Below, piece by piece: positions 6,276-14,851 of a stretch of 64,000 nt of DNA. Each line of letters starts with the position of its first letter. The stretch's first letter is position 1. Made by a program: the position numbers and the translations under genes. The DNA comes from Chloracidobacterium sp. N. GTDB lineage: Bacteria > Acidobacteriota > Blastocatellia > Chloracidobacteriales > Chloracidobacteriaceae. The notes beneath the pieces were generated by a model. The model saw only the letters and a program-made list of their open reading frames with translations. It was not told where the DNA came from and searched no databases. The stretch is from the NCBI RefSeq assembly GCF_018304765.1, contig NZ_CP072642.1, positions 2,509,819 to 2,573,818 of the forward strand, given 5' to 3'.

Positions 6276-7172
6276 ATGCCTGATACCCAGCAGCATGAGA
6301 TGCGACTCAAAACCGGTCTGGCGGAAATGCTCAAAGGCGGCGTCATCATGGATGTCGTCAACGTCGAGCAGGCGCGCATTGCTGAAGAAGCCGGCGCCGT
6401 GGCCGTGATGGCGCTGGAGCGCGTCCCGGCCGACATTCGCCGCGATGGCGGGGTGGCGCGGATGTCCAACCCGCGCATGATCCGCCAGATTATGGAGGCC
6501 GTCTCGATTCCCGTCATGGCCAAGGTACGTATCGGACATACCGCCGAGGCCCAGGTGCTTGAAGCCCTTGGGGTGGACTTCATTGACGAGTCGGAGGTCC
6601 TCACTCCGGCCGACCCCTATCACCACGTCAACAAGTTTGCTTTCCGCGTCCCGTTCGTCTGCGGGGCGACCAACCTGGGTGAGGCGCTGCGCCGCATTGG
6701 CGAAGGTGCGGCCATGATTCGGAGCAAGGGGGAAGCCGGGACGGGCAACATCATCGAGGCGGTGCGCCACCTGCGGGAAATCCGCCGCGACATCCGCCTG
6801 CTGACCGTTCTCGACGAAGACGAGCTGATGGCCGAAGCCAAGCGGCTTCAGGCCCCCTATGAACTCGTGCGCTACGTGGCGCAGCACGGCAAGCTGCCGG
6901 TACCGCTCTTTGCCGCCGGCGGCGTCGCCACTCCGGCCGATGCGGCGCTCTGCATGCAACTGGGCGCTGAAACTGTGTTCGTTGGTTCGGGCGTCTTCAA
7001 ATCCAATGACCCGGCCCGCTTTGCCCGCGCCATCGTCAAAGCCGTGACGTTTTATCAGGACCCGGCCAAGGTCCTGGAAGCCTGCGAGGAAATCGAAGAC
7101 GGACAGCCCATGCGCGGGCTGGCAATTGAAACCCTCCCGGCCGAACAGGTGCTTGCCGCGCGCGGCTGGTAG
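6276..7172 (+). CDS. pdxS: Pyridoxal 5'-phosphate synthase, synthase subunit PdxS
   Basis: 298 residues from the ATG at 6276, with GGAGGA at 6259-6264; an upstream in-frame extension to 6024 has no homology-like content. The TIM-barrel synthase makes PLP from ribose 5-phosphate, glyceraldehyde 3-phosphate and ammonia. Very conserved blocks are present: [44 protein letters not shown] with the Schiff-base lysine, and [10 protein letters not shown]. Its glutaminase partner PdxT is encoded about 31 kb away. Two inverted repeats follow the stop. Confidence 0.98.
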
Positions 7173-7210: not shown

Positions 7211-7227
7211 CATTGGACATCCATCCC

Positions 7228-7275
7228 GGACGTTGCCTATGCTGTAAAAGCTTCCCGGCAACGTCCTTTTGTTTT
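7228..7275 (+). terminator. Intrinsic terminator-like hairpin between pdxS and the dnaE C-terminal gene
   Basis: A perfect ten-base inverted repeat, GGACGTTGCC (7228-7237) and GGCAACGTCC (7257-7266), with a 19-base loop, is followed by TTTTGTTTT. This has the shape of a Rho-independent terminator on the plus strand. It lies only 12 bases upstream of the chosen start of the dnaE fragment, so it would separate that gene from pdxS transcription or act as an attenuator in its leader. Confidence 0.6.
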
Positions 7276-7287
7276 GGGATGCCTGCG

Positions 7288-7407
7288 ATGTCACTGCGTG
7301 AAATCAGAATTACCCGTGTGACACCGGTCGGCCCGGCGCCAACCTACAACGTGACCATGCGGGCACCGCTGCACAACTATTTTGTCAACGACCTTCTGAC
7401 GGCCAAC
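7288..7407 (+). other. C-terminal split-intein segment (IntC) within the dnaE fragment
   Basis: Forty codons from Met to the terminal Asn (AAC at 7405-7407). Features of intein C-termini: block-F-like HNYFVND, a C-terminal Asn for cyclisation, and a Ser at +1 (7408-7410) as nucleophile. The penultimate residue is Ala instead of the usual His, as in cyanobacterial DnaE inteins. Compared with E. coli FNKSHSAAY, the junction falls between K and S; the cyanobacterial DnaE intein instead precedes CFNKSHS, so the insertion point here is four residues further along. Confidence 0.8.
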
Positions 7408-8604
7408 AGCCACTCGGTCTGCTACGGTGTGCTCGCCTACCGCACGGCCTATCTCAAGGCACACTATCCGGCGCACTTCTGGGCGGCGGTGCTAACCAGC
7501 GAGCTGAACGACAGCGACAAGGTTGCCCGTTACATCGAGCGGGCGCGGGCGCAGGGCGTCGAAATTCTGCCGCCGGATGTCAACATCAGCGAGCACGGTT
7601 TTACGGCGACCGAGGGCCGGATTCGGTTTGGCCTGATGGCCATCAAGGGCATCGGGGAAGCCACCGTGGATGCCATCCTGGAAGCGCGTGAGCAAAGCGG
7701 CCCGTTCCGCTCGCTGTTTGACTTTACCGAGCGGCTTGACCCCAAGGCGCTCAACCGGCGGGTGCTGGAAAGTCTGGTCAAGTCCGGCGCACTGGACGGC
7801 CTGCCGGGGACGCGCGCCCAGAAGTTTGCCGCCATCGAAGCTGCACTCGAACATGGACTACAGGCGCACCGCGATGCCGTCGCGGGACAGGTCTCCCTGT
7901 TTGACACACTGGCGGCTGACTCCGACCAGCCCCCGGAAACTGAACTGCCCAGGGTTCCCGACTGGACGGCCAAGGAAAGCCTGGCCGGCGAAAAGGCCAC
8001 CCTTGGGTTCTACCTGACCGGCCATCCCCTGGCCGGTTTCCGTGAAGCCCTGGCGGCGCGCAAAAGCCTGTCCTACGCCCAACTGGCCGGCCAGCCGTCG
8101 GGCGATACGGTCAGCATGGGGGGCGTCATCAGTGACTTCACCGTGAAAAACACGAAGAAAGGCGACCGCTTTGCCGTCTTCAGCCTCGAAGACGAAACCG
8201 GGAGCATCGAGGTCATTGCCTGGCCCGAAACCTTCAGGCGGCTGGGCGAGCAGGTCACGGATGGGGTGGCCGTACTGGTCACCGGCCGGCTGGAAATCGA
8301 AGACGGCAAAGCGACCAGAATCGTGGCCGAAGCAGCCGAACCGCTGGAAGGGCTGCGGGAGCGGCATGCCAAAAGTGTCATGCTGCGTTTTGCGGCGGAC
8401 GCACTCGACACCGCACAACTCGAAAAGCTCCGTGAGGTGCTCGACCGCCATCGCGGAGAACGCCCCCTGATCTTCGCGCTCTCTCTGCCGAATGGTGTGG
8501 AAGCCCGCCTTCGCGCGCACCACACCTTCAGCGTGCGGCCCTCACCGGCGCTCGTGGAAGAACTGCAAGCCGGCTTCCCCGGCTGCACCGTTGTGCTTCA
8601 GTGA
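7288..8604 (+). CDS. dnaE: DNA polymerase III alpha subunit, C-terminal fragment with N-terminal split-intein (IntC) segment
   Basis: 438 residues from the ATG at 7288 (GGGA at 7276-7279; an in-frame ATG at 7279 would add three residues). Residues 1-40 are a C-terminal intein piece: a TYNVTM strand, a block-F-like HNYFVND, and a terminal LLTAN. The next residue, Ser41, starts ordinary DnaE sequence (SHSVCYGVLAYRTAYLKAHYP), followed by the HhH region (IKGIGEATVDAILEA), GFYLTGHPL, and an OB fold (VSMGGVISDFTVKNTKKGDR). Upstream DnaE domains are absent; pdxS and a terminator precede it. The host polymerase must therefore be assembled from two genes, presumably by protein trans-splicing with an N-terminal half encoded elsewhere. 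Confidence 0.9.
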   Translation: MSLREIRITRVTPVGPAPTYNVTMRAPLHNYFVNDLLTANSHSVCYGVLAYRTAYLKAHYPAHFWAAVLTSELNDSDKVARYIERARAQGVEILPPDVNISEHGFTATEGRIRFGLMAIKGIGEATVDAILEAREQSGPFRSLFDFTERLDPKALNRRVLESLVKSGALDGLPGTRAQKFAAIEAALEHGLQAHRDAVAGQVSLFDTLAADSDQPPETELPRVPDWTAKESLAGEKATLGFYLTGHPLAGFREALAARKSLSYAQLAGQPSGDTVSMGGVISDFTVKNTKKGDRFAVFSLEDETGSIEVIAWPETFRRLGEQVTDGVAVLVTGRLEIEDGKATRIVAEAAEPLEGLRERHAKSVMLRFAADALDTAQLEKLREVLDRHRGERPLIFALSLPNGVEARLRAHHTFSVRPSPALVEELQAGFPGCTVVLQ

Positions 8605-8638
8605 ATGAAGCGCGCCGTTTCTGGACGCAGGTTTGCTT

Positions 8639-9538
8639 ATGACATCCCAGGTTGCCTCGCCCCAGCCCGAACCGGCAGCACTGACCCCTGAACCGGCAGC
8701 GTCGGCCGTCGCGCCGGAGCTGCCGCCGGAATTCAACAGCATCATCAACCTTCAACTCCCGGTTGAGGACGGTGTTCCCCTGGAAAGCGTCTGGCATCGG
8801 CTGCAAATCAATCTGCTTGACGACTGCCTGCACCAGCACTGGCGTGGGCGGACGGACTTTTTCGCCAGCGGCAATATGTTTGTCTATTACAGCCTGCAAC
8901 AGGTGAAGACGATGGACTACAAGGGGCCGGACTTCTTCGTGGTGAAGGATGTGGACGGCTCCTTCATGCGTGGGGCGTGGGTGGCCTGGGAGGAAGGCGG
9001 ACGGCTCCCGGATGTCATTGTCGAGTTGCTCTCGCCTTCAACCCAGGCGGCCGATCTGGGTCAGAAAAAACAGCTCTACGAGCGGGTCCTTCGGACGGCC
9101 GAGTATTTCTGCTACGGCCCCGATCCGACGTTTGGCAAAACGCCGACCCTTCAGGGCTGGGGGCTTGTCCACGGGCAGTACGAAGCCATCGAATCCGATG
9201 CCCGTGGGTGGCTGTGGAGTAACCAGCTTGGGGCCTGGCTCGGTGAATGGGAAGGGCAGTACCACGGGATGCAGAACCGGTGGCTGCGGCTTTACGACTC
9301 CACGGGGCAGCTTATCCCGACCCGGGCCGAAGCGGCGGAAGCCGAAGCTGAACGTGCGCAGGCCGAAGCCGAACGTGCCCAGATGGAAGCCAGGCAGGCC
9401 CGCGACGAGGCGGAAGCCGAACGCGCCCGCGCTGAAGCCGCCGAGGCCCGGGCCGCCGCCCTCGCAGCGGAGATAGAGCGTCTGCGGTCCGGTCTGAAGG
9501 GAACGGACCAGGGCGCCGGCCCTGACGAGCCGGCTTAG
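8639..9538 (+). CDS. Uma2 family protein (putative restriction-endonuclease-like fold) with C-terminal coiled coil
   Basis: 299 residues from the ATG at 8639. The central part has Uma2/DUF820 signatures: GPDFFVVKDVDG, RLPDVIVELLSPST, and a KKQLYERVLRTAEYF helix, a PD-(D/E)xK-like arrangement. Residues ~230-290 are a long charged heptad-like helix rich in EAERAQAEAERAQ repeats, a predicted coiled coil often found behind Uma2 domains in cyanobacteria. The cellular role of this family is not established. It ends in a four-base convergent overlap with gyrA. Confidence 0.8.
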   Translation: MTSQVASPQPEPAALTPEPAASAVAPELPPEFNSIINLQLPVEDGVPLESVWHRLQINLLDDCLHQHWRGRTDFFASGNMFVYYSLQQVKTMDYKGPDFFVVKDVDGSFMRGAWVAWEEGGRLPDVIVELLSPSTQAADLGQKKQLYERVLRTAEYFCYGPDPTFGKTPTLQGWGLVHGQYEAIESDARGWLWSNQLGAWLGEWEGQYHGMQNRWLRLYDSTGQLIPTRAEAAEAEAERAQAEAERAQMEARQARDEAEAERARAEAAEARAAALAAEIERLRSGLKGTDQGAGPDEPA

Positions 9539-13724: not shown

Positions 13725-14471
13725 TCAGTCATTGCCGCGTCCGCGTCCCCGTGGTCCGCGTCCCCGTCCGGGTGCGCCACGCAGATCGTTGTACCCCTGC
13801 TCATAGCCGGCGCGATAGCCATCACGGAAGCCGCGCCGGTAGTTGCCATCATGCCGCCACTCACGCTGGAAGCCCTGCATGGCGTTCTCATAGGTTGCAT
13901 TGCGGAAGTTCGGCCGGAATCCCTGGCGGCGGTCCTGGCGTCCCTGTTCAAAACCAAGCTGAAATCCGATGTCCCGCCCGCGCTCGCGTACCCACTGCTC
14001 CGAAGGTGGGCGGCGATTGAAGCGCGGGTCACTGACGCCCCACGGGTCCCAGTTTTGCGCCACAGCCGGTTGTGGTCCGCGTCCCCGTCCGCGTGCGCCA
14101 CGCAGATCGTTGTACCCCTGCTCATAGCCGGCGCGATAGCCATCACGGAAGCCGCGCCGGTAGTTGCCATCGTGCCGCCACTCACGCTGGAAGCCCTGCA
14201 TGGCATTCTCATAGGTTGCATTGCGGAAGTTCGGCCGGAATCCCTGGCGGCGGTCCTGGCGTCCCTGTTCAAAACCAAGCTGAAATCCGATGCCCCGCCC
14301 GCGCTCGCGTACCCACTGCTCCGAAGGTGGGCGGCGATTGAAGCGCGGGTCACTGACGCCCCACGGGTCCCAGTTTTGCGCCACAGCCGGTTGCGGTGTT
14401 CCAGCCAGAAACAACACACCAAACAACACGGCGCTCCAGATGAAGATTCGGCTTCGCAGGGTGGTCATCAT
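13725..14471 (-). CDS. Secreted Arg/Gly-rich protein with two near-identical 107-residue repeats
   Basis: About 248 residues from the ATG at 14471, which has GGAGG eight bases upstream. A signal peptide (WSAVLFGVLFLAGTPQPAVA, cut near AQ) is followed by two copies of a 107-residue unit and a GRGRG-type tail. Each unit starts at PQPAVAQNWDPWGVSDPRF and contains many aromatic residues between Gly and Arg (FRDGYRAGYEQGYNDLRG). The second copy repeats even the signal-peptide cleavage region, so the duplication copied the end of the signal peptide. I do not recognise a family. The opposite strand is also open for 320 codons, but it lacks a signal peptide and an RBS. Confidence 0.7.
   Translation of the reverse strand: MMTTLRSRIFIWSAVLFGVLFLAGTPQPAVAQNWDPWGVSDPRFNRRPPSEQWVRERGRGIGFQLGFEQGRQDRRQGFRPNFRNATYENAMQGFQREWRHDGNYRRGFRDGYRAGYEQGYNDLRGARGRGRGPQPAVAQNWDPWGVSDPRFNRRPPSEQWVRERGRDIGFQLGFEQGRQDRRQGFRPNFRNATYENAMQGFQREWRHDGNYRRGFRDGYRAGYEQGYNDLRGAPGRGRGPRGRGRGND
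13751..14392. repeat. 321-bp tandem duplication inside the secreted-protein gene
   Basis: Copies 13751-14071 and 14072-14392 differ at only about five positions that I could see (for example GGGTGC versus GCGTGC, and GATGTC versus GATGCC). The length is a multiple of three, so the frame is kept. Near-identity including synonymous sites points to a recent event or ongoing conversion. Confidence 0.9.
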
Positions 14472-14851
14472 CGCGTTGTCCTCCACGATCAAAGATGTTC
14501 ACCTGCCATGGAGAATAACCCGCGTGCCACAGCCCGGACATGGGCGTTTTTCAGGCGTTTTTCGGGTTGACCGGCGGGTTCCTCCACCGTCTTGCCCAAA
14601 TGACTAACCCATATCGTGCAGCGCCGTTTGGACGGACACCCCAAACCGTCACCGGCCAGCCAGCCGTTGTCTGGCAGCATGTTCAGAGCAGGATGCAAAA
14701 AAACTGACTTTGTGCCCTTCTACAGCATCCAACCGCACTGTGTTGGCATACGCTGCCGGAAGTTCCGGGAGCACCCGGCCGACCAAAGGAAAGGCGACTG
14801 ATGACAGACTCCGCCGGGCTTTCGGGCCATTATTCCGTGAGGAAAAGCCCT
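14472..14851. promoter_or_regulatory. Divergent intergenic region between repeat protein and esterase genes
   Basis: 380 bp that should hold promoters for both flanking genes. I see a ten-base direct repeat, GGCGTTTTTC, at 14543-14552 and 14554-14563 with one base between, and a TTGACC at 14567-14572, but no convincing -10 partner. No open frame in it has coding character. Confidence 0.35.

Follow-up and report, generated by a model that had tools for sequence, protein, structure and literature searches.

The closest described systems are the split DnaE inteins of cyanobacteria (Ssp, Npu), which are reportedly the subject of Wu 1998 and Caspi 2003; in these bacteria the split dnaE consists of two unlinked genes and the +1 residue of the intein is Cys (CFNK). 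A second kind, said to have been described in Dassa 2009, comprises the 'fractured genes', which combine split inteins with an endonuclease gene that stands free. Fractured genes are mainly phage genes and typically carry Vsr-like endonucleases. The genus Chloracidobacterium, in which we detected a split dnaE, has a phototrophic life style and includes thermophiles. Only the rir1-b intein is listed for C. thermophilum (PMC4071816), and the splits mentioned in the available part of a 2013 survey are in cyanobacteria (PMC3919608). For the passage from a continuous gene to two distant genes, neutral intermediate steps were proposed, with no examples in the excerpt of that source (PMC3403396). Among the literature matches listed, none reports a split intein from Chloracidobacterium or from any other acidobacterium; an earlier notice is possible.

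We analyzed a stretch of 64,000 nucleotides of Chloracidobacterium sp. N (the window), which contains the gene for the C-terminal part of DnaE, dnaE-C (ORF 7288-8604, ATG at 7288, stop at 8602-8604, 438 aa; Table 1). As the initial annotation had stated, this gene begins with a 40-residue IntC-like segment ending in LLTAN, followed by Ser: residues 1-40 read MSLREIRITRVTPVGPAPTYNVTMRAPLHNYFVNDLLTAN and the next ones SHSVCYGVLAYRTAYLK, a conserved DnaE motif. The DnaE profile NF004226 matched from residue 40/41 on (E 1.7e-100), and the part past IntC aligns with the C-terminal third of DnaE profiles, with domain matches to HHH_6 (6.4e-32) and to the OB fold (4.8e-11). This C-extein also contains a clamp-binding-like motif, found once per C half in all 16 sequences compared. 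The alignment to NF005616 (PRK07373), which we take to be the profile of the cyanobacterial DnaE C-half, starts at residue 6 and includes the IntC part, so that the first 40 residues appear to be IntC-like and not a random leader. The MSLRE start is common to the seven genomes of the genus. There is an in-frame TTG at 7126, upstream of the ATG; G001 has no equivalent, and its upstream frame is closed 13 residues before MSLRE.

Table 1. Positions of the features at and upstream of dnaE-C (window coordinates)
Feature	Position	Strand	Remark
pdxS (presumed), upstream neighbour of dnaE-C	6276..7172	+	no part of the polymerase
Promoter-like TGGACA-18-TATGCT directly upstream of dnaE-C	7214..7243	+	match to consensus; function putative
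Inverted repeat GGACGTTGC...GCAACGTCC	7228..7266	+	overlaps the -10-like hexamer
IntC, C-terminal 40 residues of the split intein (MSLREIRITRVTP...HNYFVNDLLTAN)	7288..7407	+	
C-extein, C-terminal part of DnaE, 398 aa	7408..8601	+	first residue is the +1 Ser of SHSVCYG
QVSLF in the C half, which we take to be the beta-clamp binding motif	7888..7902	+	clamp-binding-like

The profile search of the whole genome (G000, two contigs, 3.7 Mb) detected the partner gene, dnaE-N, on the same contig (C1:1086317-1089040; L002:2318-5041), as expected from the initial annotation, which had proposed a search for an N-terminal gene ending in an IntN with Cys or Ser as its first residue. It lies 1.43 Mb before dnaE-C along the contig, or about 1.2 Mb away in the opposite direction should the contig be circular. 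The 907-aa product comprises DnaE 1-765 (PHP, palm and finger domains), reaching FADYAFNK at residue 765, and then an IntN of 142 residues in total with Cys first, CVTGEATLRDAV...CTLDHKFY...LPLQEILARGLALY, in which a conserved core of about 110 aa is followed by a variable tail. The proposed check with intein HMMs gave 36.3 bits for TIGR01445 (intein N-terminal region; cut-off 24.5), though PF14890 stayed below its cut-off (20.7 bits, cut-off 35.8). IntN and IntC are thus located on separate genes, each fused to a part of one host protein. The same search found no complete second dnaE: the genome has one match to PF07733 (catalytic domain) and one to PF14579 (C-terminal HhH), and PF07733 is likewise single in all 14 genomes with a split dnaE and in G009. 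Since the clamp-binding-like motif, HhH and OB fold are in the C half, neither half would be a processive polymerase alone. A second intein_Nterm match in this genome (G000:C2:671556-671762, minus strand, L112) is in a 1591-aa ORF and may correspond to the rir1-b intein of C. thermophilum (PMC4071816).

Genes split by mistake are common in assemblies, and the initial annotation had named a false join at about 7.2 kb as a danger; the dnaE gene could then be a single one, broken by an assembly error or a frameshift. We consider the probability of this explanation negligible. The halves are unlinked in seven of seven genomes of the genus (G000-G006): far apart on one contig in the three two-contig genomes (G000, G001, G005) and on different contigs in the four drafts. 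The presumed pdxS adjoins dnaE-C in the window and in all six other genomes, and in 4 of these 6 one and the same regulator gene, NtrC-like by eye, follows dnaE-N. The intein code at the break is also unlike the product of a frameshift. We rejected an assembly error, a frameshift and the presence of another complete dnaE.

The upstream region was described in the initial annotation as pdxS and a terminator, not the rest of dnaE. The gene content agrees with this; the terminator is doubtful, as the inverted repeat overlaps a conserved promoter-like pair. This pair was found once, compared to 0.0 expected in shuffled sequences, and TGGAC and TATGCT are present in all seven genomes of the genus (alignment judged by eye). 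According to the alignment, 6/7 genomes retain the inverted repeat, G001 through a compensatory change and G003 with a single mismatch, and G005 has lost it. The terminator scan has no entry for it, although the loop exceeds the length that the scan permits. The repeat was also sought as a shared operator, and it was absent at dnaE-N with no other exact copy of the pattern in the genome. It may be the pdxS terminator or an operator. Elsewhere in the window, 13725-14492 (minus strand) encodes a 255-aa putative secreted protein (by eye) with two near-identical halves of about 100 residues each, an internal tandem duplication; the counterpart ORF in G003 is shorter, about 170 aa.

Of the residues expected in a class 1 intein, all 16 sequences have Cys1, CTxxH (block B), the C-terminal Asn and Ser+1, and HNY is likewise invariant; the penultimate residue of IntC is Ala, not His. 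Most inteins have Asp in block F (YD); here all 16 sequences have the block F His (HNY) and Asn at the Asp position (YN for YD). Both intein halves are under purifying selection: dN/dS was 0.04-0.23 for the IntN core, compared to 0.20-0.70 for the IntN tail, 0-0.20 for IntC in 7 of 8 pairs and 0.04-0.25 for the exteins, all for pairs with a finite value. These ratios were calculated by the Nei-Gojobori method (own script), omitting saturated or zero dS, distant pairs being saturated, and excluding the N-extein of G025-G033, which is spoiled by the second intein of G033.

The charges of the two halves are opposite, with the same signs in all 15 members of the class (IntN -8 to -17, IntC +2 to +5; -11 for the IntN core and +2 for IntC in the window genome), and those of a contiguous form from Chloroflexi (L072) are +1 and -2. 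Charge segregation is given as a conserved feature of split inteins in the excerpt of PMC11923092. The AlphaFold model of the L072 intein, produced from aligned IntN and IntC rows with the window IntC among them, has a HINT fold (pLDDT 83.3; Foldseek 1e-10 to 6frg) and resembles NpuDnaB (4o1r: Z 21.7, rmsd 1.4, 135 aligned) and NpuDnaE (4kl5: Z 20.1, rmsd 1.7, 132 aligned). This model supports the HINT fold for the intein family, not directly for the window pair. The single-sequence model of the same intein was poor (pLDDT 39), and the aligned one was preferred.

Alternatively, the halves could form a non-covalent two-subunit polymerase, with the intein pieces inert or serving as a docking device only. 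The block F Asn in place of the usual Asp could point this way, and splicing is predicted here from sequence. We consider this alternative quite improbable, because the other catalytic positions tested are invariant in 16/16 sequences over a large divergence while the IntN tail drifts, and because contiguous forms exist at the same site, where the polymerase would retain an insert of 160 or 176 aa if the intein were not spliced out.

We favor, with high confidence, the reading that Chloracidobacterium DnaE is made as two proteins from distant genes, which would be joined by intein trans-splicing between FNK and SHS; the reaction and its necessity are predicted from gene anatomy and conservation. 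Protein 1 (907 aa, about 101 kDa, DnaE 1-765 with IntN) and protein 2 (438 aa, about 48 kDa, IntC with the DnaE C-part) would find each other through the acidic IntN and the basic IntC, which would fold as one HINT domain. Cys1 would then attack the K-C bond, the chain would pass to Ser+1, the last Asn of IntC would cyclise, and a native FNK-SHS peptide bond would join the DnaE halves. The anatomy fits such class 1 trans-splicing, with a native FNKSHS DnaE of about 129 kDa as the predicted product.

The intein is an allele other than the cyanobacterial one, since the junction is four residues off and the +1 residue is the native Ser of FNxSHS. In the alignment of the G009 protein with PDB 1zde, the cyanobacterial intein is located directly after FAEY and the Blastocatellia one after FADYAFNK; the cyanobacterial arrangement, Y/CFNKSHS with Cys at +1, is replaced here by FNK/SHS with Ser. 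Both the four-residue offset and Ser instead of Cys as the nucleophile had been proposed in the initial annotation, and both are borne out, the latter in all 16 sequences. Of the two options left there, an independent fracture or a different intein allele, the different allele is correct: 15 of the 162 class genomes have the intein at this same site. In the PDB, the IntN profile matched DnaE inteins best (7qil, 3e-11; 4lx3, 7e-11), followed by DnaB, gp41-1 and RecA inteins.

The pattern scan over 84,980 species, with one genome per species, so that genomes very near that of the window may fall outside, detected 10 loci: nine in Blastocatellia or other Acidobacteriota and one, the contiguous form, in Chloroflexi. 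A pattern scan of the viral_contigs set detected, at its sensitivity, no relative of IntN or of the endonuclease described below, and a phage origin was rejected. In another genome of the phylum (G058), a 1659-aa DnaE2-like ORF (L085, by eye) contains an intein starting after DYGFPE, at an apparently equivalent position; inteins may thus favor this site in DnaE and DnaE2-like polymerases alike, as a hot spot.

The 15 genomes with this intein, among the 162 of the class, show five states; G008, a fragmented genome in which dnaE-C was not found, was left out. Unlinked halves, the first state, are those of Chloracidobacterium. In the second state (G033, G025, and G501, G502 and G498, whose loci are L068, L070 and L071) the halves are adjacent, with a free-standing LAGLIDADG_3 gene between them (Pfam E 1.9e-13 and 1e-10 for the two genes tested). 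This endonuclease gene starts within the end of the IntN gene, in a different frame, and its stop overlaps the start codon of IntC. The endonuclease model had six matches in the 162 genomes: the five strong ones are all at dnaE split loci, and the sixth, weaker one (G450, 6.6e-22) was not placed in a gene. The model had no match in the seven Chloracidobacterium genomes. The endonuclease dN/dS was 0.21 (L068-L070) and 0.10 (L068-L071), the third pair being saturated, and no PDB sequence matched at E 0.01.

In the third state (G014), only 69 bp separate the endonuclease ATG from the stop, reading MPRTAWNKRLTPEIEERI-TRYL; the G025 endonuclease gene is 744 bp longer. This remnant shares 42 of 54 bases with the start of the G025 endonuclease gene, against 31 to 40 with the other four genes and at most 26 in 2000 shuffles, and 14 of 15 bases at its end (7 to 11 for the others). 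In the fourth state (G007), the halves are adjacent with a Uma2-family gene between them (PF05685, 9e-15). A Uma2-family gene (PF05685, 2.5e-14) also directly follows dnaE-C in the window (8633-9538); this gene is matched downstream of dnaE-C in 2/6 other genomes of the genus, so the coincidence is probably due to chance. In the fifth state (G009), one 1670-aa ORF contains a contiguous 160-aa mini-intein. Its linker aligns with the G014 endonuclease remnant over 71 bases (3 of 1000 shuffles as good; 78 to 716 of 1000 for the other four endonuclease loci), and the mini-intein keeps split-type charges. G009 may therefore represent a re-fusion, a reading that is no more than suggestive. The dnaE genes of G007, G009 and G033 (L043, L044, L045) hold a second, longer intein just before TYQEQ / VYQEQ, that is, two inteins each, one split or mini and one long, the latter long enough (by eye) for a built-in endonuclease.

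From this series in the relatives we propose, with less certainty than for the splicing, that an IntN-LAGLIDADG gene-IntC cassette fractured dnaE at FNK/SHS in Blastocatellia, that the endonuclease gene was afterwards lost or replaced, and that a rearrangement in the Chloracidobacterium ancestor could have moved the halves apart for good. The IntN tails of Chloracidobacterium and G007, read by eye in three frames, showed no remnant of the homing endonuclease, so an endonuclease-bearing ancestor of these two is suggested by the relatives only. The absence of a remnant in these tails would also agree with a convergent fracture, in which a contiguous mini-intein of the kind seen in G009, a member of the same family (f1), gave rise to the Chloracidobacterium split independently of the endonuclease-bearing forms of families f3 and f4; the intein tree leaves the order of events unsettled. 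We regard the convergent fracture as unlikely. In the extein tree (without G021, G029, G040, G017 and G043, where the site was not recovered, and without L072, a long branch), G009 is the sister of G007 (98/98), next to Chloracidobacterium, and G007 is split at the same place. The G009 linker resembles the G014 remnant, though not the other four endonuclease loci, and its charges are of split type, unlike those of the Chloroflexi form.

The proposed cassette may have changed hosts. In comparisons between families, IntN and IntC each show more similarity than the exteins adjoining them (50% over the last 100 residues, 43% in the C part). Within f3, in contrast, the similarity of IntN falls below that of the N-extein. 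This pattern suggests that the intein came to be shared more recently than the dnaE gene. The IntN of G033 has 77% identity with the IntN of L068 and 65% with that of G025; the corresponding values are 63% and 84% for the N-extein, 71% and 87% for IntC, and 60% and 68% for the endonuclease. In the intein tree, poorly resolved overall, G033 groups with L068-L071 (93/92). The f2 genomes (G010-G013) and G016 are without this intein and were placed between f1 and f3 with modest support (tree with G010-G012 and G016). A movement of the cassette between families, with losses, is held with low to moderate confidence and is suggestive only, because the AU test did not reject the tree that keeps the family of G033 together, as the species grouping does (p-AU 0.134), and only IntN puts G033 nearer to L068 than to G025.

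A wider proposal is that the IntN-LAGLIDADG gene-IntC cassette is a mobile element homing into dnaE at FNK/SHS, breaking the gene on arrival and jumping between families, and leaving permanently split (Chloracidobacterium), refilled (G007), scarred (G014) and re-fused (G009) genes. We put it forward as a tentative and somewhat doubtful possibility, weakened by the IntC and endonuclease identities, which lack the transfer signal of IntN. If true, naturally split inteins would have a general origin in gene fracture by a homing cassette, and not in contiguous inteins that split slowly; the cyanobacterial DnaE split perhaps arose in this way too.

Split DnaE inteins are widely used in protein-ligation tools and, in the portions of the literature examined, were described only from cyanobacteria. 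Chloracidobacterium and its relatives appear to be a second bacterial group whose replicative polymerase depends on trans-splicing, and a source of new split inteins with a native Ser +1. The relatives provide candidate intermediates (endonuclease between the halves, remnant, replacement gene, contiguous form, dispersed halves), and the order of events is therefore testable.

Compared to the cyanobacterial split DnaE inteins, the Blastocatellia intein is located in the same host protein, is split at the usual endonuclease position and has an Ala-Asn end, with an IntN core of about 110 and an IntC of 40 residues against 102-111 and 35-36 residues in the excerpt of PMC2664965. It differs by the insertion four residues downstream, the native Ser +1, the other phylum and the endonuclease-bearing relatives. 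The contiguous DnaE inteins, that of Desulfonema ishimotonii (in the excerpt of PMC6390638) and the second intein of G007, G009 and G033, occur in the same polymerase but are continuous, the latter at another site. Five relatives resemble the fractured genes in that a split intein interrupts dnaE and an endonuclease has its own gene between the halves; here, however, the endonuclease is of the LAGLIDADG_3 type, the host is a cellular replicative polymerase, the genes overlap, other relatives lost the endonuclease or dispersed the halves, and the genus of the window has no endonuclease at the split. Neither split DnaE inteins nor fractured genes are new as kinds. What appears to be new, within the literature examined, is the allele, its host group, the fractured state with a LAGLIDADG gene in a chromosomal polymerase, and the series of states.
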